Of a DNA stretch of 36,533 nucleotides, positions 7,983 to 36,356 are shown one piece after another. This stretch comes from Myxococcota bacterium (GTDB lineage: Bacteria; Myxococcota_A; Polyangia; Polyangiales; Houyiibacteriaceae). Under the pieces are notes generated by a model. The model ran no database searches and had not been told where the DNA came from. It saw only the letters and a program-made list of their open reading frames with translations. How positions within the stretch are numbered: position 1 is the first letter of the stretch; every line of letters starts with the position of its first letter. The stretch spans positions 1 to 36,533 of the forward strand of contig JANQQS010000167.1 of the NCBI GenBank assembly GCA_028284955.1. Reading direction: 5' to 3'. The position numbers were made by a program, and so were the translations under genes.

Positions 7983-8279
7983 TTACCCTCGGTGATAGTT
8001 TTCGATTCTGACGTCGTGAAATTCGCCGCGATGGAACGCGAACGTGATGCACCACGGCAGGTCAATGGTGACGCTCCATCGCCCCGCCTGATCCCCTTTA
8101 AGTTTATGAAGTCGGATGTTGGGTGGCTGCCCGTGAATCCTGAGGTCTTCCAGCGCGGATGTGTTGTGCATGATCGTGAGGAGTGCTTTCGCACGTTCCC
8201 ACATCGGCCTCGGCAATCGTTTACTGCTATCCCGTTCCCAAACATCACGCGCCACCTTGTTTCCAAACCCAACAATCAT
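7983..8279 (-). CDS. higB: HigB-type toxin (RelE/ParE superfamily)
   Basis: The 98-residue protein reads MIVGFGNKVARDVWERDSSK, then KALLTIMHNTSALEDLRIHG, then NIRLHKLKGDQAGRWSVTID. It ends ...CITFAFHRGEFHDVRIENYH, the pattern of HigB plasmid-maintenance toxins: ribosome-dependent mRNA interferases with the R-W-S/R-I-x-F core. The usual ITFRF is ITFAF here, so a core Arg is replaced by Ala, which could weaken catalysis. The start at 8279 is preferred because homology begins there. A 26-base tandem duplication (8259-8306) copies the start region, and its outer ATG (8306) runs quickly into a stop. Confidence 0.88.
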   Translation of the reverse strand: MIVGFGNKVARDVWERDSSKRLPRPMWERAKALLTIMHNTSALEDLRIHGQPPNIRLHKLKGDQAGRWSVTIDLPWCITFAFHRGEFHDVRIENYHRG

Positions 8280-11771: not shown

Positions 11772-11892
11772 CTCAGCAATCTAACGAGAAAGCGCACCGA
11801 TCGCACGAGACCACGCGCCAGAAACAGGTTTCCCATCTTGTCGAGCGCGACGGCATGGGTACCATGAAGGTCGGGGAGGAGAGAGGTCCGCG

Positions 11893-13344: not shown

Positions 13345-13489
13345 CATCTATCGCAGTGATATCCGCTGACACATTGGAGCAATAACGTCTCACCGCGGCA
13401 GTCTTTGTGTCTTTGCAGATGTGTCGGTAGGTTGTTACCCTTGTGCGCCGAAGCTCACATTCTCCCGAGCCAAACCCACAGGAGTCGCG

Positions 13490-15046: not shown

Positions 15047-15049
15047 GAG

Positions 15050-15076
15050 ACTGGTGTCAAACGCTCCCGTCGGCTC
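15050..15076. repeat. Dispersed repeat, copy 2
   Basis: CTGGTGTCAAACGCTCCCGT lies right after the stop of paralogue C and is the inverted counterpart of the copy at 121-147. See that entry. Confidence 0.5.
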
Positions 15077-15175
15077 GCTTGTCTTAGCCGCCACCCGGCT
15101 GCGTTGCTGGGCATGGGTTGCGGCATAAAATTTCCTTTTTTATTGTAATCTTTCAAACACACTGCTTGCGGTATC

Positions 15176-15204
15176 TGCGGAATTTGATAATCTGATCATC
15201 CGCA
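15176..15204. promoter_or_regulatory. Inverted repeat upstream of pectate-lyase-like gene D
   Basis: TGCGGA (15176-15181) and TCCGCA (15199-15204) flank an AT-rich 17-base spacer that includes GATAAT and the palindrome TGATCA. This A/T-rich patch, 20 bases before the start codon in otherwise GC-rich DNA, is a plausible -10 region with an operator. No -35 is convincing. Confidence 0.3.
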
Positions 15205-15223
15205 TTTAACCCAAGGAGTTTCG

Positions 15224-16771
15224 ATGTACGCTCATGTGCGCGGCAGACGCGCAACGTTGTTCTTGTGCATGGCGGCAGTCGCCACCGGATGCTCAAGTAA
15301 CGGAAAAGATGGAACAATATCCGGAGCTGATTCCGTCTTTGATCCTGAAATAGGCGCGCAAGTTGCGCATGTCAGTTCCACCAACGACTCCGCGGGCCTT
15401 TGCTCCGGAGGGGTGATCCCCGCGTTTCCGGGTGCTCAAGGCGGCGGCGCGGCCGCAGTCGGTGGGCGCGGAGGAGCGGTCCTTGAGGTCACCACGCTCG
15501 CAGACAGCGGGCCAGGCAGCTTGCGCGCCGCGCTGGACGCCTCTGGGCCTCGAACTGTCGTCTTCCGAGTAGCTGGGACCATCCAAGTCCAAAGCCCCCT
15601 GAGCATCGACAATCCGTTCATCACGGTGGCCGGCCAGACCGCGCCAGGCGGCGGAATCATGATCAGCGGTGAGGACATTGATCTTCAGCCACTCTCGGTT
15701 GGCACACACGATGTAGTCTTGCGCTATCTGAAGATTCGCACTGGGCGCGGCGACTCGTATCAACCCGGCGCGGGTGACGTGGTGTCGATGGGCGAAGGCG
15801 CCCCGCTTTACAACGTGGTCATCGACCACTGCTCGCTAAGCTGGGGCAACGACGAGAACGTGGCGCTCTGGTCCGATTCGGCGGTCATTCGCGATATTAC
15901 GGTCCAGAACAGCATCATCTCGGAAGCGCTGGATCACGACGGTCACAGCACGGGGATGATCGTAGGCAGCAATACGATTTGTGAAGACATTGAGAACATC
16001 AGCGTTCACCACAATATGTTCGCCCACAACGACAACCGAAACCCGTACTTGAAGGTGGCGTCGCAAGAGGTCGTCAACAACATCATCTTCAACTGGGGTT
16101 GGATGGCTACCCAAATTGCAGGTGGTGTCGAGGTCGACATCGTAAGCAACATCTACCGAGCGGGCGACGATGACCGAGGTCGGTCTGAGGTCGTGTGGCG
16201 CTCCGATCGTGTGAGCTGCAACGAAGGGCCTCCCGGAGATCCGTCAATTCACATGGCGGGCAACATCGGCCCACACAACAGCGATTCTAGCTCTGACGGA
16301 TGGGATACGATGCTTGAGCGCGCTGAGGCGTGGGGATATCCGCTGCCCGACCGCCAGCTCACGCGCGTGACTCGCGACTTTCAGCGCACGGCGCCGCTCG
16401 ACTTTGCGGACTGCCCCATCGCTGTCGATCCCGTCGAAAATCTCGAATCCGTGCTTCTCGGCGACGTGGGTGCCAGCCACCGTCTGAACGGCCGGGGCAA
16501 CTGGGTGTGGGCGCGTGACTCGGTAGACAAGCGCATCGTTCAAGAATACGAGGACACGTACGGATGGATCATCTTGATTGAAGATGATGTGGGAGGATTC
16601 CCGACCATCGCGACCGGCAACCCGTACAGCGACAACGACCATGACGGCATGCCGAACCGCTGGGAACGCGACCACGGCTTCAACAAAAACAACGCCTCAG
16701 ATGGATCTCAGGACCGCGATGGCGACGGATACACCAACTTGGAAGAGTTCCTGAACGGTACGCAACCCTAA
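15224..16771 (+). CDS. Pectate-lyase-like (PL1-type) beta-helix lipoprotein, paralogue D
   Basis: The 515-residue protein has lipobox ATGC (Cys23) and a strong AAGGAG six bases before ATG 15224. The motif series is the same as in C: FPGAQGGGAAAVGGRGGAVL, PFITVAGQTAPGGGIMISGE, IDHCSLSWGNDENVALWSDS, LDHDGHSTGMIVGSN, HHNMFAHNDNRNPYLKVA. It ends with two Ca-loop motifs (DNDHDGMPNRWERDHG, DRDGDGYTNLEEFLNG). A strong intrinsic terminator follows the gene, separating it from the DUF4397-like gene. It is probably a surface-exposed polysaccharide lyase with specificity close to C and E. Confidence 0.88.
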   Translation: MYAHVRGRRATLFLCMAAVATGCSSNGKDGTISGADSVFDPEIGAQVAHVSSTNDSAGLCSGGVIPAFPGAQGGGAAAVGGRGGAVLEVTTLADSGPGSLRAALDASGPRTVVFRVAGTIQVQSPLSIDNPFITVAGQTAPGGGIMISGEDIDLQPLSVGTHDVVLRYLKIRTGRGDSYQPGAGDVVSMGEGAPLYNVVIDHCSLSWGNDENVALWSDSAVIRDITVQNSIISEALDHDGHSTGMIVGSNTICEDIENISVHHNMFAHNDNRNPYLKVASQEVVNNIIFNWGWMATQIAGGVEVDIVSNIYRAGDDDRGRSEVVWRSDRVSCNEGPPGDPSIHMAGNIGPHNSDSSSDGWDTMLERAEAWGYPLPDRQLTRVTRDFQRTAPLDFADCPIAVDPVENLESVLLGDVGASHRLNGRGNWVWARDSVDKRIVQEYEDTYGWIILIEDDVGGFPTIATGNPYSDNDHDGMPNRWERDHGFNKNNASDGSQDRDGDGYTNLEEFLNGTQP

Positions 16772-16795
16772 ACTCGACCTGACTAGAACGAAAGA

Positions 16796-16835
16796 AAAGA
16801 GCTTCCGGGGGACACTTTGCCCTCGGAAGCTCTTT
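16796..16835 (+). terminator. Intrinsic terminator after pectate-lyase-like gene D
   Basis: Arm AAAGAGCTTCCGGGGG (16796-16811) pairs with CCCTCGGAAGCTCTTT (16820-16835). This gives a 16-bp stem with one G-U pair and an 8-base loop, flanked by A-rich and T-rich (TTTCATTT) tracts. It is likely bidirectional. The rest of the 16836-17053 gap shows no gene. Confidence 0.88.
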
Positions 16836-17053
16836 CATTTGAAAATCCAGCACGAGACGTTTTCAGACAAAGGATGATGACTCAAATACTGGACGGCTGC
16901 AGTACAACCGTTTTCTGATGCCGTCACAAAAAAGCTCGCGCATACAAGCCACCCCAGTGTATCGTTTTGGCTTGGCGATAGTTCCAATTCAGTGATCAGA
17001 TGAATCACGTGACAGGCTAAACCGCACTACGTTCGGACTCGGAAGGGATACCT

Positions 17054-18064
17054 ATGCTGACACGAAATCTTTCTTGCTTATTTGTCGCGGCAACGCTCGT
17101 GGTCGGGGTGGGCTGCGGAGACGACGACACCACCGCCCGTGACAGCGGTACGACTCTTCGTGACAGCGGCACAATCCTTCGCGACAGCGGCACAATCCTT
17201 CGCGACAGCGGCACAAACGATGGTTCCGCGGGCGATTCCAGCGCAGGCGACGCGGCCACCGACGGGGGACCTCCGGAAATGACAATCGTCCTAAGGTTTG
17301 CGCACCTTATCGGCGGCGCGGGCCCGGTCGGAGTCTGCGCCGATACCGGCACGGAGATTACGCTTCTCAACTCGCTCCTCAGCGACGGAGCGCCGCCCGC
17401 TCTCGGCGAAGGAAACGTGACCGACTTTGTGCTCGCGCCGGTCTCGGCGCTGCCTGCTGGGACAACGCTTGAGGTCTATGCGTTTGACGACATCTCCGGG
17501 ACGGCATGTCCGGATGGCACGGGAAGCGAAGAAGCGGTCATTTCAGTCGCGCTCGCAGATTTGAACATCGATCCCGAAAACGCGTACACCATCGCCGCGG
17601 TTGGCGACCTAGACGCAAGCGAAGCGGACGACCAGCCAACGCTCATTGCCGTCGAGGAGGTCTTCGCGCCCATGGACAGCGGAATGGTCTCGATTACGGT
17701 CGTGAACGCAGTGCCCGGGTCGCCTCCAGTGATATTCTGCCAACAGGGTTCGTCGGGCAGCGAAGTCGACCTGATTCCCGATGTCGCAGAAGGGCTTGAA
17801 TTCAAACAAGCCGCGACGACCGAAGTCGACCACGACGACCTCGACGCCATCGGCGGAACCCTCAAACTCTATTTTCTTGGGTTGCCCGTGGACGACGGCG
17901 GACGACGGTGCACCGATTTCGACGGCAGCACCTTCACTGGCGTTCGAACTGGCCACGCATCCTACATGGCAATTCCCAACAACGGCGGAGCGGTGACGCT
18001 GTTCCGGGACCAAGTGAGCGACACCAGTGTAACTGGCGCGCAGAATATTGCGCCCGCGCAATAA
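17054..18064 (+). CDS. DUF4397-like lipoprotein
   Basis: The 336-residue protein has lipobox VGVGC (Cys23) followed by a low-complexity linker built on (R-D-S-G-T-I/T-L) repeats. Residues ~75-190 and ~205-320 look like two beta-sandwich units: LRFAHLIGGAGPVGVCADTG ... LPAGTTLEVYAFD ... AYTIAAVGDLD, then VSITVVNAVPGSPPVIFC. This is the style of the DUF4397 modules common in myxobacterial lipoproteins; I infer the family from pattern only. GGAAGGGA precedes the start. Four Cys in the mature domain suggest disulfides and an extracytoplasmic site. A 3' remnant of a second copy lies at 22120-22230. Confidence 0.6.
   Translation: MLTRNLSCLFVAATLVVGVGCGDDDTTARDSGTTLRDSGTILRDSGTILRDSGTNDGSAGDSSAGDAATDGGPPEMTIVLRFAHLIGGAGPVGVCADTGTEITLLNSLLSDGAPPALGEGNVTDFVLAPVSALPAGTTLEVYAFDDISGTACPDGTGSEEAVISVALADLNIDPENAYTIAAVGDLDASEADDQPTLIAVEEVFAPMDSGMVSITVVNAVPGSPPVIFCQQGSSGSEVDLIPDVAEGLEFKQAATTEVDHDDLDAIGGTLKLYFLGLPVDDGGRRCTDFDGSTFTGVRTGHASYMAIPNNGGAVTLFRDQVSDTSVTGAQNIAPAQ
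17138..17215 (+). repeat. 21-bp in-frame tandem repeat
   Basis: Three full copies and a partial fourth copy of a 21-base unit encode RDSGT(I/T)L in the linker of the DUF4397-like lipoprotein. Copies two and three differ by one base (CGT/CGC), implying recent expansion. Length variation would change the surface tether without breaking the frame. Confidence 0.9.
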
Positions 18065-18094
18065 CGTGTTCCAATCAAACGCCAAATCAAAAAA

Positions 18095-18115
18095 ATTCGT
18101 GAACGGTACGCAAAA
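18095..18115 (+). other. Possible short scar of a pectate-lyase gene tail
   Basis: The bases around GTGAACGGTACGCAA resemble the last codons of gene D (CTGAACGGTACGCAA encoding LNGTQ), here in the 67-base gap before the RCC1 gene. A similar scrap (GAAGAGTTCTCAAACGGTAG) sits at 22271-22290 before the second RCC1 gene. Each match is short, so chance is possible; the repeated position is what makes it notable. Confidence 0.35.
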
Positions 18116-18131
18116 CCAAACAAGGTAACCA

Positions 18132-19913
18132 TTGCCTAAATACGGTCGAAGGCATGTGCATGGTGGATGGGTGGCCGCATTGCTGCTTCTGGCATCTTGC
18201 GGATCCAGCGAACGGTCGCTGACATGGAGCGTCGGTTTTGAAGACGAAAACCTGAGTGCTCGCGCCACCCTCCTCCGCGGTCGGATTTTGGAAGGCGGCT
18301 GCGATTCGGGGGTGATTCTGTATAGCGCCGAGCAAGACCGGCAAGGCGAAGGAATGATGGATGCGCCGCCCAGCCTACCTCCCGGCACATATAGTTTCGT
18401 CGGTGAGGCTCAAGATGGGGAATGTCGCGCGTTCGCCCGTGGCTGTACGGAGGTAGAGCTCCCGAGCGAAGGAATGACCATCGTCGTGACCCTTCGAGAG
18501 AGCGACGAGGTAACCTTGTGTGGCGAGCGCGAGTGCGAGAACGGACGGTGTTCTTCGTGCGAATCGAACGATGATTGCGCAGAATGCCTCATCTGCGACC
18601 CGGCTACCCGCGGCTGTGTTCCCGACGAAGAGGGGAGAATGTGTCAGGACGGAGCCGGGGCATGCCGCAGCGGTAACTGCTGCGCTGGCTGCTGGGATGG
18701 GATGCGGTGCCAAGACGGAGGGGTCATCAACGCGTGCGGCGCCGGCGGAGGGGCATGCCAAGAATGCGCCTGCCCGGCAACGACTTGCGCGGCCGGCGCA
18801 TGCACGATCGCCGAGCCCGTGCAGCAAGCCGATACAGGCGACTTTCATGCATGCGCGGTCACTTCCAACGGCAGCATGTGGTGCTGGGGCAACAACTCGC
18901 GCGGGCAGCTCGGTATCGGAGAAAGAGACAACACCTCGACACAACCGATGCGGGTCGGTTCGCACTCGGATTGGCGTATGGTCTCAACCGGCGAGAACTT
19001 TGGATGCGCGATTCGCAACGACGGCAGTCTGTGGTGCTGGGGCGACAACGGGTTTCAACAGCTCGCCAGCGCGACGCTGTCGCTGAGCGATGTGCCTCTT
19101 CAAATCGAGAGCGACACGGATTGGCAGATGGTTCGCGCGGGACGTTATTCCGCGACCGTCTGTGGCCTTCGAGGAGCTTCTTTGTACTGCTGGGGCCGCG
19201 ACACCCGCGGACAACTCGGCGTCGGCGGCACTGGAGACGAAATGACTCCAGACAGGGAAAAAGTTCGCGGTTCGCCGACGTTGGTGGAGCCAGCCGACGT
19301 ATGGGCCTCGGTTTCTGTGGGCAACACGCACACCTGCGCGATTCGCACAAACAACTCTCTCTGGTGCTGGGGCAACGCGGACAACAGCCGGCTCGGGACA
19401 GGCGACACCATGAACCAGGTCGTGCCCGCTCAGGTAGGCGCCGATCTCGATTGGGCCACCGTTACGGCGGGTCTGGACCATACATGCGCCACGAAGACGG
19501 ACGGTTCGTTGTGGTGCTGGGGACGAAACTCCGTGGGCGCGTTGGGCTTGGGTGACAACGAAACGAGAATGATGCCCACCGAGGTCAGCAGCCTAACCAA
19601 CGTTGTCGAAGTTGCGGCAGGCGACCAAGGCACCTGCGCGATGACAGAAGACAGCAGCGGAATCGCCCTCTACTGCTGGGGAGATAATGATGATGGTCAG
19701 CTTGGTCTGGGGACCGTAGATAGCGCGCTGACACCGTTGCAAGTGGACGAGCGCGTCGACTGGCTGCCGGGAACGCTATCCGTCGGTTTTTCAGTCTCGT
19801 GCGCGGGGCATTCCGACGGCAGCCTCGATTGTTTTGGAGAGAATGACATGGGGCAGCTCGGCCAAGGGAACAACGAGCCAGCAACTACGCCGACCGGCGT
19901 CTGTATTCGCTGA
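18132..19913 (+). CDS. RCC1-propeller lipoprotein, copy 1
   Basis: The 593-residue protein starts at a TTG (18132). The start is supported by AAGGTAACCATTG, conserved before the second copy, and by a good lipoprotein signal (LLASC, Cys23). Residues ~30-125 are an unassigned beta domain. Residues ~130-235 form a Cys-rich collar (CENGRCSSCESNDDCAECLI and onward) of myxobacterial type. Residues ~240-590 are seven RCC1-type blades, each with (L/M)xCWG(N/D/R)...GxLG; the last is LDCFGENDMGQLGQG. It is a surface-displayed propeller, probably for binding proteins or polysaccharides; no enzyme motif is seen. Its DUF4397-like neighbour is 67 bases upstream and likely co-transcribed. Copy 2 (22312-24093) has identical length. 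Confidence 0.85.
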   Translation: MPKYGRRHVHGGWVAALLLLASCGSSERSLTWSVGFEDENLSARATLLRGRILEGGCDSGVILYSAEQDRQGEGMMDAPPSLPPGTYSFVGEAQDGECRAFARGCTEVELPSEGMTIVVTLRESDEVTLCGERECENGRCSSCESNDDCAECLICDPATRGCVPDEEGRMCQDGAGACRSGNCCAGCWDGMRCQDGGVINACGAGGGACQECACPATTCAAGACTIAEPVQQADTGDFHACAVTSNGSMWCWGNNSRGQLGIGERDNTSTQPMRVGSHSDWRMVSTGENFGCAIRNDGSLWCWGDNGFQQLASATLSLSDVPLQIESDTDWQMVRAGRYSATVCGLRGASLYCWGRDTRGQLGVGGTGDEMTPDREKVRGSPTLVEPADVWASVSVGNTHTCAIRTNNSLWCWGNADNSRLGTGDTMNQVVPAQVGADLDWATVTAGLDHTCATKTDGSLWCWGRNSVGALGLGDNETRMMPTEVSSLTNVVEVAAGDQGTCAMTEDSSGIALYCWGDNDDGQLGLGTVDSALTPLQVDERVDWLPGTLSVGFSVSCAGHSDGSLDCFGENDMGQLGQGNNEPATTPTGVCIR

Positions 19914-20035
19914 GCCCGTATGCCACTCCGAAATCGATTGGCCTAGCGTTCACCGTTGGTCTCGCGCTTTGCGATGTTCTGACTTCGTTGGTACTGTGAA
20001 AGCATAGCGGTCGGGGTGTATCGGAGCATGTAAGC

Positions 20036-21607
20036 ATGTATGTAGATGTGCGCAGCAACCGGCTTGTGTTGATTGTGTGCGCGTGGTTCTTCGCTCTGGC
20101 GTGCGACCACAAAACCAGCGGTCTTGGTCCCCAAGACTCGGACGCAGCCCGCGATGTTCCTAGTGACACGTCGCTTCCCGATCAAACGCGGGATGCGGCG
20201 CGCGCCGACGGCTCGACGAACGACAGTGGGAACGCATGCGCGAACGGCCTCATTCCGGCGTTTCCAGGCGCAGAGGGAGGCGGAGCGGCATCGGTCGGAG
20301 GCCGCGGGGGCCGGGTTCTTGAAGTGACTACGCTGGCCGACAGCGGCGCAGGCAGCCTGCGCGCCGCGCTGGATGCCCCAGGACCACGAATCGTTGTGTT
20401 CCGCACTTCAGGCACGATTCGTCTCCAGCGACCGCTCAGCATCGATCGACCGTTCGTCACCGTAGCGGGCCAAACTGCGCCGGGCGGTGGAGTGATGCTC
20501 AGCGGCGAAGACATCGACCTGCAGCCGCTCTCGATCGGCACGCACGATGTCATTCTGCGCTATCTGAAGATTCGTACCGGGCGCGGCGATTCTTATCGAC
20601 CAGGCGCGGGAGACGTGATCGCGATGGGGGAAGGCGGCGATCTCTTCAACGTCATCATCGATCACTGCTCTTTGAGCTGGGGCAATGACGAGAATGTGGC
20701 GCTGTGGTCAGACTCTGGTGTGATTCGCGATGTCACGATCTCAAACAACATCATCTCAGAAGGATTGCACCATGATCGACACAGCACAGGGCTGATCGTC
20801 GGCAGCAACTTAATCTGCGAGGACATTCAGCGCATCAGCGTCCACCACAACTTCTTCGCCCACAACTACAACCGAAACCCGTATCTCAAGGTTGCGTCGC
20901 AAGAGGTGATCAACAACATCGTCTACAACTGGGGCTGGCTGGCCACGCAGATTGCGGGCGGGGTCGAGATCGACATTGTAGGCAACCTGTACAAAGCTGG
21001 AGTCGACGATCAGGGAAGGTCTGAGGTCGCGTGGCGTTCGGATCGACGCAGCTGCAACGAGGGCCCGCCCGGGCCACCGTCGATTCATCTGGCGGGCAAC
21101 GTCGGCCCGCACAACGACGACCCAAGTGTCGATGGATGGGACACCATGCTCGAACGCACGGAAGCGTGGGCGAACCCTCCTCCGTTCACTCGTCCCACCC
21201 GCGTGACGCGCGACTACCAGCGCTCGAATCGAATGTCGTTCGCTGCGTGTCCGGTCACCATCGATCCCGTGCAGGAGCTGGAAGACACGCTGCTTCCGAA
21301 CGTCGGCGCAAGCCGTCGACTCGACGCGCGAGGGGAATGGGTAAGCAATCGGGACGAAGTCGACCAGCGTGTGTTACGCGAATATAGAGATGGCGGAGGC
21401 GCGATCATCCTCACCGAATCGGACGTCGGCGGATTTCCGGATGTCGCGAGCGGCGAGCCCTACACCGACACCGACCGAGACGGTATGGCGGATGAGTGGG
21501 AACGAATCCATGGGTTCAATCCTTCTTCAGCATCTGACGGGCCAACAGATCGAGACGGCGACGGCTACACGAACGCGGAAGAGTTTCTGAACGGCACTCA
21601 ACCCTGA
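20036..21607 (+). CDS. Pectate-lyase-like (PL1-type) beta-helix lipoprotein, paralogue E
   Basis: The 523-residue protein has lipobox ALAC (Cys23) and MY..VR at the start, as in C and D. It has FPGAEGGGAASVGGRGGRVL, PFVTVAGQTAPGGGVMLSGE, IDHCSLSWGNDENVALWSDS, GLHHDRHSTGLIVGSN and HHNFFAHNYNRNPYLKVA, plus C-terminal Ca loops DTDRDGMADEWE and DRDGDGYTNAEEFLNG. It differs from C and D at two sites in the cleft: GLHHDRHS for ALDHDGHS, and HNYNRNP for HNDNRNP. These may shift substrate preference. Its last 81 bases overlap the antisense tail of the deleted lipoprotein ORF. A near-copy of its last ~23 codons plus 3' flank lies at 24165-24252. Confidence 0.88.
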   Translation: MYVDVRSNRLVLIVCAWFFALACDHKTSGLGPQDSDAARDVPSDTSLPDQTRDAARADGSTNDSGNACANGLIPAFPGAEGGGAASVGGRGGRVLEVTTLADSGAGSLRAALDAPGPRIVVFRTSGTIRLQRPLSIDRPFVTVAGQTAPGGGVMLSGEDIDLQPLSIGTHDVILRYLKIRTGRGDSYRPGAGDVIAMGEGGDLFNVIIDHCSLSWGNDENVALWSDSGVIRDVTISNNIISEGLHHDRHSTGLIVGSNLICEDIQRISVHHNFFAHNYNRNPYLKVASQEVINNIVYNWGWLATQIAGGVEIDIVGNLYKAGVDDQGRSEVAWRSDRRSCNEGPPGPPSIHLAGNVGPHNDDPSVDGWDTMLERTEAWANPPPFTRPTRVTRDYQRSNRMSFAACPVTIDPVQELEDTLLPNVGASRRLDARGEWVSNRDEVDQRVLREYRDGGGAIILTESDVGGFPDVASGEPYTDTDRDGMADEWERIHGFNPSSASDGPTDRDGDGYTNAEEFLNGTQP

Positions 21608-27921: not shown

Positions 27922-28185
27922 AAATCGGCCCTGATTGCGCGCGGTTCATCCGACCAAAGCGGCATAGGCTCCGAAAAAGACAAGACTAAACGGGAATTGT
28001 GTCCGAAATAGTCAGTAGCGTTGTGACCGCCCGTTCAGACAGAGCCCGTGCACGCGGCGATGCGGGACTCGCGCTCGTTCGCACGAAAGGGTTAACGAAA
28101 TTACTCAACAATAGGCTTGCATAGTGAACACGCGCCGGGCGATTCTCCGCCTAGCGGAGGGACGTTCCTCGGAGAGGAAGGCGGC

Positions 28186-28896
28186 GTGGTGCATGCATAC
28201 CAAAAGCCTGCTCGTCGAAGAGGCCCGGTGCGCCGTCGTCAGCAAATGGGCCTCGTCGTCGGCTCAGTCTTGGGAACCGGGATCACGGTCGGCATTTTTT
28301 CGTCCGGCAACGAGCGTCTGCGAGCACGAGGCCCGATGAATCCGGGTCACGAAGATATTCGGTGCGCCCAATGTCATGCCGACGCCGCGGGCAGCACGCG
28401 CCAGCAGATTCAAGCAAACGTTCGCTATCTGCTTGGGCAGCGAGCAACGCCGGTTGATTTTGGTTTGCGAGACGTCGGCAACGCAGAGTGCTTGGGGTGC
28501 CACGAGCGACCCAACGATCGGCATCCCGTATTTCGTTTTAACGAACCACGCTTCGCAGAGGCGCGCAGAAGCATTGCGCCCCATCGCTGCATCTCTTGTC
28601 ACGCCGAGCATAAAGGCCGTCGCGTCAGCGCGGAACCAACGTATTGCCAACATTGCCATGAAGACCTGAAACTATCGTCGGACCCGCTCGACACACCGCA
28701 CCGGGAGCTTGTGAGCCAACAGGAGTGGCAGACGTGCCTGGGATGTCACGATTTTCACGGGAATCATTTGATGCAGGTGCCGCGCGTATTGGATGAGGCG
28801 ATTTCGGTTCCGCGAATCGAAGCGTATTTCAAGGATTCCCATTCTCCGTACTCTCCTCTGAGAAAACATCGTGCGAAGCGCGAGGCGCAACCATGA
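28186..28896 (+). CDS. Membrane-anchored pentaheme cytochrome c
   Basis: Five CxxCH motifs are present in order: CAQCH, CLGCH, CISCH, CQHCH and CLGCH. Further His residues (NDRHP, APHR, HGNH, FHGNH) could be distal ligands. A basic N-terminus (KPARRRGPVRRRQQ) and one hydrophobic helix (MGLVVGSVLGTGITVGIF) anchor it with the hemes in the periplasm. The frame is open from TTG 28117, but AGGAAGG before GTG 28186 makes that the better start (236 residues). It resembles multiheme c3/NapC-like electron carriers only in outline. Its stop overlaps the next start (ATGA), so translation is coupled with the DUF3365 gene. It likely shuttles electrons between the membrane cytochrome and a periplasmic partner. 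Confidence 0.82.
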   Translation: MVHAYQKPARRRGPVRRRQQMGLVVGSVLGTGITVGIFSSGNERLRARGPMNPGHEDIRCAQCHADAAGSTRQQIQANVRYLLGQRATPVDFGLRDVGNAECLGCHERPNDRHPVFRFNEPRFAEARRSIAPHRCISCHAEHKGRRVSAEPTYCQHCHEDLKLSSDPLDTPHRELVSQQEWQTCLGCHDFHGNHLMQVPRVLDEAISVPRIEAYFKDSHSPYSPLRKHRAKREAQP

Positions 28897-29885
28897 GCCG
28901 CCATGAGCAGCCGCGCGGTGATGACAACGTTCGACATCGCCGTCAGCGGCGGGAGGGCGCGGTCTCGGGAACAAGGAAAATCGAGGCTATCCCGCTGGTG
29001 CACAAGAAAGAAGAGCGTGCATCGTCGACACCCTTTGCCGCGGCCCGACGTCGTCGCCAACCCATTCGCTGGACGCCGCTCGTTTTCATGGTTTTGTCGT
29101 TTGCGTCGTTGATCGTGTACCTATTCGTGAGTGCGCCGCCGCCGCTGCCGGAACGTGCCGTCGAAGACAGCGGTGCGATGCTGAGCGTGGCCCAATTGAT
29201 TCAGGTATGCGCCGACGAAAACGCGGCCGTGCGTGCGATGTACACGAAAGAGATCGTGGGGTTTGGCAAACAAGTGGGCCTTTCGTTTTCGGAGCAGTGG
29301 AAGCAAGCCGACGAGAACTCTGGCCCGCTTCCTGCGCTTTTCTTGCGAGAAACCGCGGCGCACCTGGAACGGTCTTCGGTCCCGCTCGGACTCTTTCTTG
29401 GTTCGAGCAATCCAATCAACAAAGCAAACCTTTTTCGCGGGATTCAACGCGAAGCTTTTCGCCGCATCAAAGAGACTCGAGAACCAGAGTTCTTTTATGA
29501 CGAAAGCACCGAGCGCCATACAGCCATGTTTCCCGATGTCGCGGTGGCCAAGCCCTGCGTGAGCTGCCACAACGAGCACGAAGACAGCACCAAACGAGAC
29601 TGGAAACTCGGTGATGTGATGGGCGCAACTACGTGGTCGTATCCAAAAGAGTCCGTGCCGCTGCGTGAAGCGATGCGTGTGGTCGCTGCGTTGCGGCAAA
29701 GCTATCTCGAGGCGTATGCGCAGTATGTTCGCAAAGCCCAGGAGTTTGAGAACGCTCCTGCGGTCGGCGAACGTTGGCCACGGGATGGCTACTACTTGCC
29801 CCGCGTAGACCGGTTTGCGGCGAGAGCCGCAAAGCGCAGCTCGGCACAAACCCTGAACAGTTTGATCTCTGCTGCTTTGGAGTGA
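28893..29885 (+). CDS. Membrane-anchored DUF3365 (Tll0287-like) heme-domain protein
   Basis: The 330-residue protein has a basic cytoplasmic N-terminus (~60 residues) and one TM helix (TPLVFMVLSFASLIVYLFVS). A periplasmic domain of the DUF3365/Tll0287-like family follows: AMYTKEIVGFGKQVGLSFSE, NPINKANLFRGIQREAFRRI, EPEFFYDESTERHTAMFPDV, then the heme motif CVSCH (C222, C225, H226) in KPCVSCHNEHEDSTKRDWKL-GDVMGA. Tll0287-type domains are PAS-like folds binding a c-type heme, used as redox or gas sensors. Here there is no attached kinase or cyclase, so it is either an electron carrier or a stand-alone sensor. It overlaps the upstream pentaheme gene by four bases and is two bases from the next gene. 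Confidence 0.82.
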   Translation: MSRHEQPRGDDNVRHRRQRREGAVSGTRKIEAIPLVHKKEERASSTPFAAARRRRQPIRWTPLVFMVLSFASLIVYLFVSAPPPLPERAVEDSGAMLSVAQLIQVCADENAAVRAMYTKEIVGFGKQVGLSFSEQWKQADENSGPLPALFLRETAAHLERSSVPLGLFLGSSNPINKANLFRGIQREAFRRIKETREPEFFYDESTERHTAMFPDVAVAKPCVSCHNEHEDSTKRDWKLGDVMGATTWSYPKESVPLREAMRVVAALRQSYLEAYAQYVRKAQEFENAPAVGERWPRDGYYLPRVDRFAARAAKRSSAQTLNSLISAALE

Positions 29886-29887
29886 CG

Positions 29888-30361
29888 GTGAAGTTCGACT
29901 GGCTGTTTCTTGTCGGAATCGCACTACTCGTTGGATTGACTTTGCTCCTGACCTGGGGCCCGGAATGGGCCTGGCTCGCTGAGCAGCAGACCAACCCAAC
30001 GTTCAAGTTCTTGAGCGGTGGCGCGCTAGCCGCGTATCTGCTGCATCAATGGTGGCTTGCGGTGGCTCGCGGACTTCGATGGAACCGAATGGCCAAACGC
30101 GCCTACGAGCCTCACCGATACTTCGGGGTCCTGGCGCCGATTGTTTTCTATGTGCATTCGATCCGGTGGGGGTACGGCTTTTTGATCTTGCTAAGCACCA
30201 CATACGTTTCCAACGTGGCCATTGGAATGATCGGTCCGGAGCGATTTCATCGAAGCGCCCCTTGGTACCGCGCCGGTTGGACCGTGCTGCATGTCGCGTT
30301 CGCAGCGGTGGTGACGGCGCTCGCCGCGTCTCATGCTTGGTTCGCGTTCTACTATGAGTAG
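29888..30361 (+). CDS. Four-helix, His-rich membrane protein (cytochrome-b-like)
   Basis: The 157-residue protein starts at GTG 29888, two bases after the upstream stop; the longer open frame is not supported. It has four or so hydrophobic segments: WLFLVGIALLVGLTLLLTW, GGALAAYLLHQWWLAVA, GVLAPIVFYVHSIRWGYGFLILL, and WTVLHVAFAAVVTALAASHAWFAF. His residues within or at the ends of helices (LLHQWW, HRYFG, YVHS, VLHVAF, ASHAWF) are spaced like bis-His b-heme ligands of cytochrome-b561/ferric-reductase-type proteins. It is probably the quinone-facing membrane module feeding or draining the two c-type proteins of this operon. The family is not identified. Confidence 0.7.
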   Translation: MKFDWLFLVGIALLVGLTLLLTWGPEWAWLAEQQTNPTFKFLSGGALAAYLLHQWWLAVARGLRWNRMAKRAYEPHRYFGVLAPIVFYVHSIRWGYGFLILLSTTYVSNVAIGMIGPERFHRSAPWYRAGWTVLHVAFAAVVTALAASHAWFAFYYE

Positions 30362-30631: not shown

Positions 30632-32029
30632 ATGTTTGGTCGGTACTGGATCCATCGACGGATTGGCCGCGGAGGGATGGCTGAAGCCTGGCTCGCGACC
30701 GCGATGGGTCCGCAGGGTTTTCAGAAAAAAGTCGTTTTGAAAGTCATCGCGCCACGTCGCGCGCAAGATAACCAGTTTGTTCGAATGTTTGTACGGGAAG
30801 CGTCGCTCGCGGCGCAGTTGAACCACCCAAACGTTGTGCAAGTATTCGATTTTGGCAAACGTGACGGCACCTACTTCATCGCGATGGAATACGTGCCAGG
30901 ATTCAACCTGCGCCAGATTGCGAGTCGCGCAGCGGAGCAGCGGGTGGCTTTGCCGCTCGGTTTTGTTGCAGGCGCAGTGGTGGCTTGTTGTCGCGGGCTA
31001 TCTCATGCACACGGAACACGAGGCAAAGACGACGCCCACCGCATCATTCACCGAGATGTGACATCTGAGAACATCATCGTCTCGGATGACGGGATCACGA
31101 AACTGATTGACTTCGGAATCGCCGCAACGGCTGGGGAGATGGGCGCCGAGGCCGGGGTGGTGAAGGGGAAGCCGGCATACCTCGCCCCCGAACTGGTGCG
31201 CGGGCGCCCGATCGATCCCCGGTGCGATATTTATTCGCTGGGCGTGGTGCTTTACGAGTTGCTCACGGGACAGCGGCCTTTTGGCGCACAAACCGGGCCC
31301 GCAGTACTCCGTCGCGTAGTGAACGAGGGCTTGCCGTCGATCGACGACCGAGCGCCGCATCTTCCCTTGTCACTCCGAGAGGTGGTTCGCCGAGCCACCT
31401 CGATTGAGCCGACTCGTCGTCCCGAGAGCGCATCCGCGTTTTTGAACGATTTGAAACAAGCATGTGTTGCGGCGGAAAGCCCTCCCCACGGTCCTGAGCA
31501 AATGGCCGATTTCGTGTCTGCTCTCTTCGAGGAACCGTGTCGGTTGCCCTCGTCGAGGATGAGCACGGATACGACCTCCGCGCCGGCGAGTTCGGACGAC
31601 GATGAAGTCGATGAAGTCGATATCGACATCGAGTTCGATCTGGAAGCCCTGCATGACGAACTAGGTCTTCGCATTCGACCCGAGGTTCGATCAGGTCCTG
31701 CGTCGTGGAAGCCTCATATGAGCGACATCTTTGCCGTCGGTCGTCCCGCCCGGCGTTCAAGCGAGCGAACCAGTTCGAGGGGATACGATTCTGGAGCGAG
31801 CAAGCCGAGCGAAGTCAAGCCAGGAGCGAGACCGCCTTCTGACCCATCCAATCTGTTTGATCGGCAGAGCGCAGCGAGAAAACGGCCAAGCGGTTGGCCG
31901 GCGTGGGTGACATCAAGCGACCACGCGTTCGGAGCTTTGCGCATGCGCAAAACGGCGCCAGCGGGAAAACCACCTTTTGTGACTGTACGAACTATGTCCG
32001 ACGATTCCGAGTCTGAGAACAATACATAG
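30632..32029 (+). CDS. Soluble eukaryotic-like Ser/Thr protein kinase
   Basis: In the 465-residue protein the kinase domain spans ~4-275. It shows the Gly-rich loop IGRGGMAEAW, catalytic Lys37 (VLKVI), Glu56 (VREASL), HRD140-142 in IIHRDVTSENIIV, DFG160-162 (DFGIA), APE as YLAPELVRG, and DIYSLGVVLYELLTG. All catalytic residues are present. The C-terminal ~190 residues are low complexity with an acidic stretch (DDDEVDEVDIDIEFD) and no TM helix, sensor or repeat domain. That is unlike PASTA-type kinases, so input probably comes from partners. GGAA a few bases before ATG 30632 is a weak ribosome site. It is 15 bases from the roadblock gene, suggesting one operon of kinase, roadblock, OmpA-like, roadblock-like and V4R. 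Confidence 0.92.
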   Translation: MFGRYWIHRRIGRGGMAEAWLATAMGPQGFQKKVVLKVIAPRRAQDNQFVRMFVREASLAAQLNHPNVVQVFDFGKRDGTYFIAMEYVPGFNLRQIASRAAEQRVALPLGFVAGAVVACCRGLSHAHGTRGKDDAHRIIHRDVTSENIIVSDDGITKLIDFGIAATAGEMGAEAGVVKGKPAYLAPELVRGRPIDPRCDIYSLGVVLYELLTGQRPFGAQTGPAVLRRVVNEGLPSIDDRAPHLPLSLREVVRRATSIEPTRRPESASAFLNDLKQACVAAESPPHGPEQMADFVSALFEEPCRLPSSRMSTDTTSAPASSDDDEVDEVDIDIEFDLEALHDELGLRIRPEVRSGPASWKPHMSDIFAVGRPARRSSERTSSRGYDSGASKPSEVKPGARPPSDPSNLFDRQSAARKRPSGWPAWVTSSDHAFGALRMRKTAPAGKPPFVTVRTMSDDSESENNT

Positions 32030-32044
32030 ATAGCGGAGGTATTT

Positions 32045-32440
32045 ATGGCACAGCAGCAAAACGTCGTACCGATGGCGACTCGTTCGGAACGCGTCAACGA
32101 GGTACTCCGCGCATTGCGAGTGACGACGCCGGACATCATCGGTTCGGTCCTCGTCAATATGGACGGCTTCATCGTGGCGTCCCTTCTTCCGAGCGAAGTC
32201 GACGAAGAGCTGATCGGCGGAATGGCGGCCGCCATTCTGGGCGTCGGCGAACGAATTTCGAGTGACTTGATGGCATCTGAAATGGAGCAGGTGTACGTGC
32301 GCTCCCCCAAGGGATACATCGTGGTCAACGCGGTCACGTCCGAAACTGCGCTCGTTTTGTTGGTCACGCGAGAAGCGAAGTTGGGGCTCATTTTTCTCGA
32401 ATTGCGACGCGCGGTCGGAGAGCTGGCGCACGTACTCTGA
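32045..32440 (+). CDS. Roadblock/LC7-domain protein
   Basis: The 131-residue protein is a single roadblock/LC7 fold: VNEVLRALRVTTPDIIGSVL, VNMDGFIVASLLPSEVDEEL, IGGMAAAILGVGERISSDLM, then the strands VYVRSPKGYIVVNAV and ALVLLVTREAKLGLIFLEL. In bacteria such proteins (MglB-like) usually regulate small Ras-like GTPases or cluster with them; no GTPase gene is in this window. GGAGG before ATG 32045 is a strong ribosome site. Its stop and the next ATG overlap by one base (TGATG). Confidence 0.9.
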   Translation: MAQQQNVVPMATRSERVNEVLRALRVTTPDIIGSVLVNMDGFIVASLLPSEVDEELIGGMAAAILGVGERISSDLMASEMEQVYVRSPKGYIVVNAVTSETALVLLVTREAKLGLIFLELRRAVGELAHVL

Positions 32441-33126
32441 TGCTTGCGTTGTCGCGCAGTCACCATTCGACGTGGGCTGTTGTCGTCCTCCTGATCGGAC
32501 TCGCAGACCTTGCATACCTCGACTTCGTCGTCGGGCCAGAGGTATTCAGGCCGCGTGCAGCAGCCGCGGAATTGACTGCACGTGTTCGTCCAACTTCGAT
32601 CACTATCTCGAGTCTAAACGCCGCCCCGAGCTCAAACACTGTTCCGAGTTCGAACACCGTCTCGAGTTCGAACAGCACGGCTTCGAATTCGGATCGCACA
32701 GTTTCGAATTCAGACAACGTTGCGAACGTTGATCCTGAGCCACCCCCATCGCCGAGTCACCCTCCGCCCACCGCAGCCACAGCGCTGTTCGCGCAAGACA
32801 GCGCAAAGCTAAACATCGCATCCGTTCGCGAAGTCGAGCGCATCGGACACGCAATCACATCAGAAAAAACCTTTCCTGAGAAACTGCATGAGGTTCTTGT
32901 CGTGGGCCACGCAGACAATCGAGGTACCCCAAGATACAACGCGGCACTAGGCCGCAAGAGGGCAGACAGCACGGCGCGCCAGTTGCGGCGCCTCGGCATT
33001 CCTCGAAGCAAGCTTCGAATCGAAAGCCGCGGGGAAACCGAGCCAATCGATTCGCGTTCTGTGCCACAGGCTTGGGCGCGAAATCGCCGCGTAGAGATTA
33101 CCGTGCACTGGGAGGAGCAACCATGA
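32440..33126 (+). CDS. Inner-membrane-anchored OmpA-like peptidoglycan-binding protein
   Basis: The 228-residue protein has one N-terminal TM helix (WAVVVLLIGLADLAYLDFVV), a Ser/Asn/Thr repeat linker (~57-95), a Pro-rich stretch, and a C-terminal OmpA domain. The latter has the signature VVGHADNRGTPRYNAALGRK, RADSTARQLRRLGI, IESRGETEPID and NRRVEITVH. The Asp and Arg that hold diaminopimelate (GHADNRG, RNRRVE) are present. The topology is MotB-like, tethering an inner-membrane complex to the cell wall. It overlaps both neighbours (TGATG upstream, ATGA downstream), so tight coupling with the two roadblock-type genes is expected. Confidence 0.87.
   Translation: MLALSRSHHSTWAVVVLLIGLADLAYLDFVVGPEVFRPRAAAAELTARVRPTSITISSLNAAPSSNTVPSSNTVSSSNSTASNSDRTVSNSDNVANVDPEPPPSPSHPPPTAATALFAQDSAKLNIASVREVERIGHAITSEKTFPEKLHEVLVVGHADNRGTPRYNAALGRKRADSTARQLRRLGIPRSKLRIESRGETEPIDSRSVPQAWARNRRVEITVHWEEQP
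32626..32720 (+). repeat. Ser/Asn-coding repeat
   Basis: Degenerate ~18-base units around GAGTTCGAACAC encode SSN(T/S)V-type repeats in the OmpA-like protein. This is a flexible linker between the membrane helix and the wall-binding domain. Confidence 0.7.
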
Positions 33127-34016
33127 CCTCACTTTTTGGAAACCCGCTTCACGGTCTATGGATTATGTCGACGCTCGGCGCGGGATTGTTTTTCTGCGCG
33201 GGCTACTTGCTGTCTCGCGGTCGACGTACCACCGTGGCGCGCCTAGATCCGGTGCCTTCGATGCCGACGATCCCTCCCGAACCGGCGCGCGACCACCGCG
33301 CCGAGGCATCCTTGCGGCACTCGCTCATCCAAACGGAGGATCGGTGCCGGCGTCTCACCGAAGAACTCAACGTGATGCGCGGCTCGCTGAACCAGGCGCA
33401 CGCTTCGCTGAATCGGGCCCAAGGTTCAACAGCGGAGCTTGCAGAACTGAAAAAGAAAAACGGGGAGCTCCAAGCCCAAATCAAGTACGCTCGATCGATC
33501 GAAAAAGAGCTTCGCGCACAGCTTCGCGTAGCCCATCGATCTTCGTCCGCATCGACCAGACCGCGTCCACGGTCTAGTGCGCCACCGGTCAAGACGCCGC
33601 TTCCGCCGCCGGTAACCCAATCTGCGCGCGGTGTTGAGTACGCGCTCAAACGAGTCCTCGAGAACCTGCGCCGCGATGTTCGGCTGCGCGAGGTTGTGGT
33701 TGCGGACCGGATCGGTTTTCCCGTGGCGAGCCTTGGCTCGGAAGCCGATGCGATGGCTGCTTGTTGCGCCTTTCTTCGAGATATGGCGCGTCGCGCATGC
33801 GAAATCGTACCGGTGGGTATGCCGTCTCGAGTAACCGTTGAAGACGTGAATGGCTCCACGCTGACACTTTGCACATTCGAACCAGCAGAACCCTCTCTTC
33901 TTGTTCTCGGGGGCGACGAAAGACTTTCTCGAGCCCACCTTGAACAAGCTTTGCAGAATTCCATCGACTTACTCGAGCGAGACATCGAGCAAAATCGACC
34001 GACGGCGACCCACTGA
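33123..34016 (+). CDS. Membrane-anchored coiled-coil protein with C-terminal roadblock/LC7-like domain
   Basis: The 297-residue protein starts at ATG 33123, overlapping the previous stop (ATGA). The TM helix is LWIMSTLGAGLFFCAGYLLS. A coiled coil at ~65-150 (EELNVMRGSLNQAHASLNRA, ELKKKNGELQAQIKYARSIE) and a Pro-rich hinge follow. The last ~105 residues read REVVVADRIGFPVASLGSEA, CCAFLRDMARRACEI, VTVEDVNGSTLTLCTF and SLLVLGGDERLS. That is a roadblock/LC7 pattern with the D-x-x-G-x-P-V-A-S turn. The domain faces the cytoplasm if the coiled coil does. It could recruit the soluble roadblock protein or the kinase to the membrane. The fold call is from pattern only. Confidence 0.75.
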   Translation: MTSLFGNPLHGLWIMSTLGAGLFFCAGYLLSRGRRTTVARLDPVPSMPTIPPEPARDHRAEASLRHSLIQTEDRCRRLTEELNVMRGSLNQAHASLNRAQGSTAELAELKKKNGELQAQIKYARSIEKELRAQLRVAHRSSSASTRPRPRSSAPPVKTPLPPPVTQSARGVEYALKRVLENLRRDVRLREVVVADRIGFPVASLGSEADAMAACCAFLRDMARRACEIVPVGMPSRVTVEDVNGSTLTLCTFEPAEPSLLVLGGDERLSRAHLEQALQNSIDLLERDIEQNRPTATH

Positions 34017-34029
34017 GCAAGGAGACAAG

Positions 34030-34548
34030 ATGACTGAACGACAACAGATGCCTCGCACCGTCGGCGCCAAAGAGGTTGCTACGGTATCCCCCCGAATCGA
34101 TCGCGTCGATGCAGCCAACGCGATGAGCATTGTGCGGCCGACCTTAGGAGACAATGCCGGCGTCGCGCTCTATCGTTTGCTTCGGCTTGTCGCGCTGGAA
34201 GACATCATTGGGCGAGGCGCCGCAGGCACGGCATACATCGCCGGAAAGAAGCTCGGGAAGGGGCTTGGTCTTCCGGATCTAGACGCCTTTCTCGAGCTCT
34301 GTGACACCCTCAAAATCGGCATCATCAAAGTGCCCGTATTGACCAGCTCAAAAGCGCATGTCGCAGTGCATGAATGCATCACGTGCAGCGGCATGAAACC
34401 GATGGGTCGCACTCTATGTCACTTTGAAGGCGGCTTGATCGCGGGAGTCGTCGAGTCGGTGATGAAGAAAAAGACGCGCGCTCAGGAGAAGACCTGCATC
34501 GGGGGACTTGGCCACGATGCGTGCGGTTTTGACATCCTCATCGGCTAA
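34030..34548 (+). CDS. V4R (4-vinyl-reductase-type) domain protein
   Basis: The 172-residue protein starts at ATG 34030 after GGAGACAAG. The V4R domain (Bet3/TRAPP-related fold) is clear: YRLLRLVALEDIIGRGAAGT, AYIAGKKLGKGLGL, VAVHECITCSGM, LCHFEGGLIAGVVE, CIGGLGHDACGF. The Cys/His cluster (HECITC, LCH, C...C) is the usual putative metal or ligand site. V4R domains bind small hydrophobic ligands or act as sensor modules. Together with roadblock proteins in one operon it resembles a minimal TRAPP-like set (Bet3-like plus roadblock). It is 13 bases after the roadblock-like gene. Confidence 0.87.
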   Translation: MTERQQMPRTVGAKEVATVSPRIDRVDAANAMSIVRPTLGDNAGVALYRLLRLVALEDIIGRGAAGTAYIAGKKLGKGLGLPDLDAFLELCDTLKIGIIKVPVLTSSKAHVAVHECITCSGMKPMGRTLCHFEGGLIAGVVESVMKKKTRAQEKTCIGGLGHDACGFDILIG

Positions 34549-34658: not shown

Positions 34659-36356
34659 ATGAGCAAGCGAACGTCGATCGTCGAAAACATTATTCGTAAA
34701 GATCCGTACGAGCGTTCGGATGAAATGCAGCCAATTTTGAGCGCGGAGGCGATTGCGCAGGTTCAGCGCTTCGGCACGGTCGAGCAGGTGGAGCAAGGGG
34801 CTGTGCTGTTCGATATTGGTGACCAGCTAACGCGCTTCATTGTGGTCCTCTCCGGGGCTCTGGCCATCGAAGTCGATGGATGCACGGAAACCACGACCAT
34901 CGTGGAACATCGGCGCGGTGCGTTCACCGGTGAGATCGATATGTTCTCCAATCGCCGAGCCGTGGTGCGAGGTCGCTGCGTGGAACCGGGGGAGATGATT
35001 TTCGTTGAGCGCGACGCCTTTCGTCGATTGCTCGCGACGCATGCCGATCTCTCGGAACTCATCACCCGAGCTTTCATTCTGCGCCGGAGCGGGCTCATTT
35101 TTCATGAGCGCGGCGACCTTGTGATCGTGGGTACGGAAACGGATGGCTCCTTTGTTGCGCTGCGCGCATTTCTCGCGCGCAATGGCCATCCTCACGGCGT
35201 GATCGATCCCCAAACCGACGAGAAGCGCACCGCAGAAGTCTTCTCGCACTATGAGATAACCAGCCGCGACCTTCCCGTGGTCATCTACCGGAACAAGACT
35301 GTGCTCAAGCAGCCTACGGTGCGGCAGCTGGCCGACTTGGTCGGCTTGTCACAGCCGTCTGGCAACAAGACTCACTACGACGTCGCGGTAGTGGGCGTCG
35401 GCCCGGCCGGTCTCGCCGCAGCAGTGAACGCCGGAGCCGAGGGCTTGTCGGTTATCGCGATCGAAGGCGGCGCACCTGGGGGCCAAGCAGGCACCAGCTC
35501 CAAAATCGAAAACTATCCCGGGTTTCCGACGGGCATTTCTGGGCAAGCACTCGGCGCGCGCATGTTGCTGCAAGCCCAAAAATTCGGCGCAGAGATCGTG
35601 ACGCCCCGCCAAGTCAAAGCCATCGAATGCGACGCCCGCCCCTACGTGCTGGAGCTGGAGGATGGCGAGACGCTCAGTGCGTCCTCGATCGTCGTCGCGA
35701 GCGGAGCGAAGTGGCGCCGCCTCCATCTCGATAAAGAAGAGCTGTTTGAAAACGCGGGGGTACACTACGGCGCGACGGCAGTGGAGGCGATGCTTTGCGA
35801 GGGCGAGGAGGTCGCGGTGGTGGGCGGGGGCAACTCTGCCGGCCAAGCCGCGATTTATCTATCCGGTCGCGCAAGCCATGTTCATATTCTGATTCGAGGT
35901 GAAAGTCTGGCCTCGAGCATGTCCGACTACCTGATTCAGCGCATCGAAGCGTCGCCCAACATCACCCTCCATCGCTTCACCGAAGTGGTGAAACTGAGCG
36001 GGGAAGAACGTCTCGAAGGCATGACCTGGAAGCATCGACGCACGAGCGAAACCGAGGAGCGACCGGTTCGCCACCTCTTCGTGATGATCGGCGCGGTGCC
36101 CAACACCGAATGGCTCGGTGATTGCCTTCTGCTTGATGAAAAAGGATTCATCAAAACCGGAAGCGATTTGCCCACAGACTACCTCGTCACCGCGGACTGG
36201 ACCGCCCAGCGCATGCCCTACATCGGAGAAACCTCGAGACCCGGCATCTTCGCAGTCGGCGATGTGCGCTCAGGAAGCGTCAAACGCGTCGCGTCCGCCG
36301 TCGGCGAAGGCGCCATCTCCGCACAGTTTCTTTTCCGTGTCACGCGCGAAGTCTAA
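34659..36356 (+). CDS. cNMP-binding / thioredoxin-reductase-like flavoprotein
   Basis: The 565-residue protein has three parts. Residues ~28-145 are a cyclic-nucleotide-binding beta-roll (FDIGDQLTRFIVVLSGALAI, GAFTGEIDMFSNR). Residues ~152-232 are a thioredoxin/glutaredoxin-like fold without CxxC (VIVGTETDGSFVALRAFLAR). Residues ~240-565 are thioredoxin-reductase-like: FAD site GVGPAGLAAA, GGQAGTSSKIENYPGFP, NAD(P)H site VVGGGNSAGQAA, end GIFAVGDVRSGSVKRVASA. At the reductase CxxC position it reads GVHYGATAVEAMLC, so the redox disulfide is missing. This is a recognised architecture whose function is unclear. It sits 110 bases after the V4R gene; operon membership is possible. Confidence 0.88.
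   Translation: MSKRTSIVENIIRKDPYERSDEMQPILSAEAIAQVQRFGTVEQVEQGAVLFDIGDQLTRFIVVLSGALAIEVDGCTETTTIVEHRRGAFTGEIDMFSNRRAVVRGRCVEPGEMIFVERDAFRRLLATHADLSELITRAFILRRSGLIFHERGDLVIVGTETDGSFVALRAFLARNGHPHGVIDPQTDEKRTAEVFSHYEITSRDLPVVIYRNKTVLKQPTVRQLADLVGLSQPSGNKTHYDVAVVGVGPAGLAAAVNAGAEGLSVIAIEGGAPGGQAGTSSKIENYPGFPTGISGQALGARMLLQAQKFGAEIVTPRQVKAIECDARPYVLELEDGETLSASSIVVASGAKWRRLHLDKEELFENAGVHYGATAVEAMLCEGEEVAVVGGGNSAGQAAIYLSGRASHVHILIRGESLASSMSDYLIQRIEASPNITLHRFTEVVKLSGEERLEGMTWKHRRTSETEERPVRHLFVMIGAVPNTEWLGDCLLLDEKGFIKTGSDLPTDYLVTADWTAQRMPYIGETSRPGIFAVGDVRSGSVKRVASAVGEGAISAQFLFRVTREV

Follow-up and report, generated by a model that had tools for sequence, protein, structure and literature searches.

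The 36,533-nt stretch of DNA analysed here (contig JANQQS010000167.1 from a Myxococcota bacterium; henceforth 'the window') contains a run of five genes that we read, with a little more confidence than doubt, as encoding a GTPase-free, peptidoglycan-anchored module for sensing redox state or gases, in which a roadblock scaffold carries an interchangeable metal-protein sensor and a kinase serves as the output. The products are referred to, in gene order, as STK, ROB, OMP, CCR and V4R. An open reading frame check returned the five genes with exactly the coordinates, strand and intergenic gaps (15, -1, -4 and 13 bases) that an earlier note on this sequence had given; ATG starts were taken for the last three (32440, 33123 and 34030).

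30632..32029, + strand: STK, Ser/Thr kinase, 465 aa (Pfam Pkinase 6e-39; motifs)
32045..32440, + strand: ROB, soluble roadblock/LC7 protein, 131 aa (Pfam Robl_LC7 2e-12)
32440..33126, + strand: OMP, transmembrane segment, linker and OmpA domain (Pfam OmpA 2e-15; transmembrane prediction)
33123..34016, + strand: CCR, transmembrane segment, coiled coil and C-terminal roadblock domain (profile, hhalign, AlphaFold2, Foldseek, transmembrane prediction)
34030..34548, + strand: V4R protein, 172 aa (Pfam V4R 4e-11; zinc-site alignment; Foldseek)

The second roadblock domain, at the C-terminus of CCR, falls below the Pfam Robl_LC7 cut-off (0.022). A profile built from 15 CCR C-termini matches a solved roadblock structure (7f8m; E 1e-6), and hhalign aligns the same region with the ROB family (E 2e-6). 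An AlphaFold2 model made from 10 sequences (predicted local distance difference test score, pLDDT, 75.5) has the topology H-E-E-H-E-E-E-H, which is the roadblock order, and its top Foldseek match is Myxococcus xanthus MglB (E 2.5e-7, TM-score ~0.7). As modelled, the C-terminal 130 residues of CCR are therefore a true roadblock domain, and the alpha-beta fold is found in both ROB and CCR. The roadblock-like end that the earlier note had seen on a membrane coiled-coil protein is upheld by all four methods, and the absence of this fold at 33123-34016, which would have told against it, was not what we found. The single hydrophobic segment at the N-terminus of CCR is followed on its C-terminal side by RGRR, from which the coiled coil and roadblock domain are predicted to be cytoplasmic.

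The remaining products largely bear out their first descriptions. STK is soluble, and a domain and transmembrane scan found neither a sensor domain nor a membrane segment, in keeping with the kinase lacking a sensor that had been proposed; K37, HRD140 and DFG160 are all retained and the C-terminal tail is rich in Asp, Glu and Ser. It is one of ~117 kinase matches in its genome, and its best non-self match across four genomes is the kinase of a hydrogenase-type operon in genome G072. ROB, already recognised as a soluble roadblock protein, is 54-70% identical to the ROBs of related operons and gives profile matches to a PDB roadblock (2e-35) and to CvnB5 (3leq; E 6e-17). Membrane attachment, as supposed earlier, agrees with the N-terminal segments predicted in OMP and CCR. 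In OMP one hydrophobic segment precedes a Ser/Asn/Pro-rich linker and the OmpA domain, so that the latter is predicted to be periplasmic. Its sequence holds D-x14-R (an Asp and an Arg 15 apart), and residues at that spacing contact peptidoglycan in OmpA-type domains. The 'MotB-like wall-anchoring protein' of the earlier note stands as regards the OmpA domain but is a loose description as regards MotB, the protein being closer to Pal/YfiB. A promoter and terminator scan found neither a sigma-70-like promoter nor an informative terminator.

The V4R gene was also correctly named: its product scores 43 bits against a Pfam cut-off of 31, its fold matches PoxR/MJ1460 by Foldseek, and the proteins it matches by sequence or fold are PoxR, MopR, MJ1460 and TRAPPC3. 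Within the subfamily alignment E115, C119, C130, E153, C156 and C165 are invariant and C116 is nearly constant. C130, E153, C156 and C165 align (by hmmsearch) with the zinc-site residues of MopR and PoxR, indicating that the protein keeps the putative Cys3-Glu zinc site of the PoxR/MopR/DmpR type, a site described for the PoxR/MopR group (PMC10715001) and for DmpR (PMC7264223). An additional CxxC (E115-C116-x2-C119) lies upstream. V4R cysteines have a redox precedent in MsvR, where they are redox-active and redox-responsive (PMC3729527).

A close ROB homologue was found in 29 of 116 relatives, and the loci around them retain the core linkage in Polyangium, Minicystis, metagenome-assembled genomes (MAGs) and genome G187, with the gene order rearranged; the neighbourhood search suggested by the earlier note thus supports it, and loss of conservation among relatives, which would have refuted it, was not observed. 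In several Polyangium species (including P. fumosum, L087) and in Minicystis rosea (L116) the genes run V4R-ROB-OMP-CCR-histidine kinase-receiver/DUF4388. Six distinct MAG loci, from Myxococcota or unresolved deltaproteobacteria (L081, L082, L083, L084, L085, which equals L035, and L086), are associated with a hydrogenase. The two fullest read DUF4388-STK-V4R-like-NiFe hydrogenase-ferredoxin/V4R-like-ROB(-OMP)-CCR, two others have receiver-DUF4388 where DUF4388-STK would stand, and in three the contig end cuts the locus or OMP is absent. In L081 and L083-L086 two V4R-like genes, one of which includes an 8Fe-ferredoxin-like domain by fusion, and the roadblock core enclose the NiFe hydrogenase genes, which may be an arrangement for sensing H2. 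These hydrogenase-linked V4R-like proteins are remote: by hhalign the closer one has E 7e-7 (probability 92) and the other a weak 2e-4 (probability 44). Genome G040 has, in this order, CCR, V4R (65-69% identical) and hemerythrin on one contig and STK-V4R-roadblock on a second. About 20 other Polyangiales loci carry histidine kinase-ROB-ODP-receiver/DUF4388-OMP-CCR, or that set with two additions, one ParA-like and the other encoding a C-terminal roadblock protein; ODP is an O2-binding diiron protein family. Pfam searches of the related loci gave ODP (PF19583) at 6e-68 and hemerythrin at 8e-13, and confirmed Fer4, histidine kinase and hydrogenase.

G187, which belongs to another family of the same class, has V4R, CCR, OMP, STK and ROB all together (locus L178), with ROB 70% and V4R 73% identical to those of the window. 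Its STK is split, the N-lobe lying on the opposite strand beyond ROB. Relative to the window order, L178 (G187:C11, 8420-10144) shows an apparent inversion of ~1.4 kb that holds ROB and the remainder of STK, with one breakpoint within STK and the other close to where ROB ends; it may be an assembly error or real. Overall, the related operons show that the sensor slot varies among metal proteins (V4R with or without hemerythrin, ODP, or a NiFe hydrogenase together with an Fe4S4-V4R-like protein), and that the phospho-output varies too (STK, or a histidine kinase plus a DUF4388 regulator). The earlier proposal of a ligand or metal input through V4R and an output through the kinase is supported as regards the metal-site residues of V4R and the kinase as output, but the partners vary, the histidine kinase and DUF4388 regulator replacing STK in Polyangium.

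A second survey, seeded on V4R rather than ROB, placed the V4R profile at 13 positions in 11 of 284 genomes of the phylum. Among the places that had not come up before, a roadblock gene adjoins V4R once in G187 and at two places in G295; in G176 one lies within ~1 kb on the opposite strand. V4R also adjoins GGDEF genes in G279, G169 and G125 and PP2C-type genes in G072:C680, these output genes having been named by eye. Likewise by eye, related-subfamily V4R genes in L180-L182 and L080 lie directly beside HAMP-like/GGDEF or PP2C/anti-sigma-type genes. Such varied neighbours are what a stand-alone sensor serving several outputs would look like. That unrelated genes came to lie together by chance is very improbable, even though these genomes abound in kinases: the linkage recurs with rearranged order in several families and, at 2-6 Robl_LC7 and 2-6 V4R domains per genome counted, by a rough estimate ~0.08 V4R-roadblock pairs within 3.1 kb would be expected in seven representative genomes versus 5 seen (P 3e-8, a value that is indicative only, as the seven were picked for carrying matches). 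A chance neighbourhood was rejected on these whole-genome domain counts and the conserved linkage.

A redox context is absent from the earlier note: a pentaheme cytochrome and a Tll0287-like protein just upstream of STK here and, in relatives, a hydrogenase, a hemerythrin or ODP. Three probable associated genes precede the operon.

28117..28896, + strand: pentaheme c-type cytochrome, five CXXCH (CXXCH count; 48% homologue beside the G187 operon)
28893..29885, + strand: Tll0287-like periplasmic c-heme protein, one CXXCH, N-terminal transmembrane segment (Pfam 4e-10; 47% homologue beside the G187 operon)
29882..30361, + strand: small membrane protein, 159 aa (29% identity to L178:12313-12798)

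Homologues of all three directly adjoin the G187 operon in divergent orientation, so the heme genes accompany the operon in two families; the G187 homologue of the 159-aa protein is weakly ferric-reductase-like (Pfam 0.019, in that homologue only). Close homologues of the Tll0287 gene occur in only 3 of 284 genomes, the third being G322. Tll0287 proteins that stand alone bind c-heme, and a preprint assigns them roles related to redox (PMC12889525). Since 270 bases separate the membrane gene from STK, cotranscription is a conjecture. Downstream, 110 bases past V4R, 34659-36356 encodes a thioredoxin-reductase-like FAD/NAD oxidoreductase with an N-terminal cyclic-nucleotide-binding domain; it was dropped as an operon member, its homologue being absent beside the G187 operon. 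A search of the window's own genome for a hydrogenase large subunit gave no match, a weak negative as it was run without a positive control.

In the mechanism we favour, OMP would be held in the inner membrane and grip peptidoglycan, fixing the assembly to the wall, whereas CCR, held in the same membrane, would extend its coiled coil and roadblock domain toward the cytoplasm. ROB and the CCR roadblock most likely pair as a dimer, giving a membrane-bound landing platform. V4R would be the input through its Cys/Glu metal site, and the periplasmic heme proteins encoded nearby may feed it or be what it responds to; in relatives ODP, hemerythrin or hydrogenase would pass on the redox or gas signal as V4R would here. 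STK would dock on the platform as the output, a part taken in relatives by the histidine kinase and DUF4388 regulator. A kinase is the constant partner in these operons, in the place where other roadblock systems hold a GTPase. Gene and domain content, the folds of ROB and of the CCR C-terminus, the metal-site residues and a conserved linkage with varying sensors and kinases are observed. It is the function of the module and the contacts between its proteins that we infer, together with topology, the identity of the signal and the direction of signalling.

Several observations weigh against this interpretation. With more than 100 kinases per myxobacterial genome, kinase adjacency alone is weak. 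The zinc site of PoxR-type V4R domains is structural, not sensory, and the V4R structure model is of low confidence (pLDDT 59), too low to place a metal site, which is why the residues were assigned by sequence alignment. Most V4R operons are without the cytochrome-Tll0287 genes, and G322 has those genes without the operon. The identity of the stimulus, moreover, we infer from neighbouring genes.

The earlier note had stated that an MglA/Ras-like GTPase is absent, and a GTPase check agrees for the operon, and indeed no GTPase gene was found in the surveyed Myxococcota roadblock/V4R or ODP operons; for the genome the statement fails, as an MglB-MglA pair lies on contig C101 (and a weak Roc-like match on C102). 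'No GTPase' is thus true of the operon, not of the genome, and the roadblock pair could instead regulate an MglA encoded elsewhere, making the operon a branch of the GTPase polarity system. An Anaerolineales MAG (Chloroflexota; L102, 7526-10372) lends this some weight: it has MglB-MglA-V4R-roadblock-roadblock consecutively, its V4R, which is 41% identical and of the same type as in the window, standing between the MglB-MglA pair and the two roadblock genes, so that a GTPase link is possible in Chloroflexota and, in trans, here. Set against the GTPase-free operons of Myxococcota, and given that the genome's MglA is already adjoined by its own MglB, we regard such regulation as unlikely. Elsewhere, several MglB-like proteins, MglA and DUF4388 regulators are clustered on a short contig (L069; G072:C719).

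Two further explanations concern what V4R and the platform do. V4R might sense a hydrophobic ligand (aromatic, lipid or isoprenoid) that the kinase reports, given that the V4R domains of PoxR, MopR and DmpR bind phenols (PMC7264223) that TRAPPC3 binds palmitate, and that an internal cavity is common to V4R domains (PMC10933270). The window protein, however, contains no Trp in its 172 residues and hence lacks the phenol-anchoring Trp of DmpR/MopR; no AAA+ output domain or any other second domain was found, and phenol sensing was disfavoured on the missing Trp. As the same place in related operons is taken by O2- or H2-linked metal proteins, ligand sensing in general seems to us unlikely. The module might also be a scaffold that positions or helps to mature envelope redox enzymes such as cytochromes or hydrogenase, with the kinase regulating assembly only; the hydrogenase association in six loci and the pentaheme cytochrome in two would fit, but many operons hold only sensor-type ODP, histidine kinase and receiver-DUF4388, and no enzyme, which leaves this quite improbable.

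Bacterial roadblock proteins are understood almost solely as GTPase regulators, and in a 2014 survey none of the orphan (GTPase-less) MglB-type roadblocks had been characterised (PMC4316618). A soluble and a membrane roadblock encoded with kinases and swappable metal sensors offer a testable GTPase-independent role, place V4R, the ancestral fold of Bet3/TRAPP, beside roadblocks in bacteria, and are a candidate means for soil-dwelling predatory bacteria to sense O2, H2 or the redox state of their envelope. None of the open-access papers searched describes a bacterial operon that joins roadblock genes with V4R, ODP or hydrogenase, so that novelty is provisional, and we propose only tentatively, at somewhat short of an even chance, that these operons form an undescribed signalling class: a wall-anchored GTPase-free roadblock platform with plug-in sensors that are metal proteins (V4R alone or with hemerythrin, ODP, or an entire NiFe hydrogenase accompanied by V4R-like partners) and plug-in kinases, reporting redox, O2 or H2.

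Elsewhere in the window, 10314-21607 encodes at least four or five similar repeated secreted-type proteins that have a motif such as DIDLQPLSVGTHDVVLRYLKIRTGRG in common, look by eye like pectate lyases and are interleaved with Cys-rich proteins, and 7983-8279 (- strand) a small protein that by eye resembles a HigB/RelE-type toxin.

The known kinds nearest to the operon are the Streptomyces conservons and MglA/MglB. The conservons (actinobacterial G-protein systems, AGPS; CvnA-D with accessory sensors CvnE/F) resemble the operon in their kinase without an input of its own, MglB-type roadblock, accessory sensor and membrane association (PMC13343842, PMC4316618), and the accessory protein CvnF8 stimulates its conservon kinase (PMC13343842). 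ROB corresponds to CvnB, but the operon has no Ras-like GTPase (CvnD), and STK is a Ser/Thr kinase rather than a CvnA-like sensor histidine kinase, although the Polyangium relatives do have a histidine kinase. The CvnD GTPase, the CvnC-type protein and the GAF accessory are features of conservons only, whereas a second, membrane-tethered roadblock, the OmpA wall anchor, the Ser/Thr kinase and V4R/ODP metal proteins are features of the operon. MglA/MglB of M. xanthus share the roadblock fold, the CCR model being nearest MglB, but here no MglB-MglA pair is coupled within a few genes, and the GTPase-free operon combines its roadblocks with a kinase and with anchoring to membrane and wall. The echo of TRAPP or polarity modules in the earlier note holds for the shared fold only. 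V4R is a homologue of Bet3 (PMC2253512), which in eukaryotic TRAPP occurs together with roadblock/longin folds; TRAPP/Bet3 and the Asgard TRAPPC3-roadblock proteins are the systems compared here. The wider likeness does not hold: Pfam found neither longin subunits nor a Rab GTPase in the products of the operon and of the genes next to it, and TRAPP-like trafficking was rejected as a fold resemblance only. PoxR/MopR/DmpR and MsvR share the V4R fold and the Cys3-Glu zinc-site residues, with redox-active cysteines in MsvR, but the window V4R is stand-alone, has no DNA-binding or AAA+ fusion, carries the extra CxxC and lacks the phenol-anchoring Trp. ODP, the family that occupies the sensor position of the sister operons, is already known to sense O2 and to act on a kinase array (PMC7666581); in Treponema denticola chemotaxis it is coupled to CheA/MCP, not to roadblocks, and the window operon has V4R instead. 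Overall, the operon is best placed as a variant of roadblock-kinase signalling, and possibly as a class of its own.

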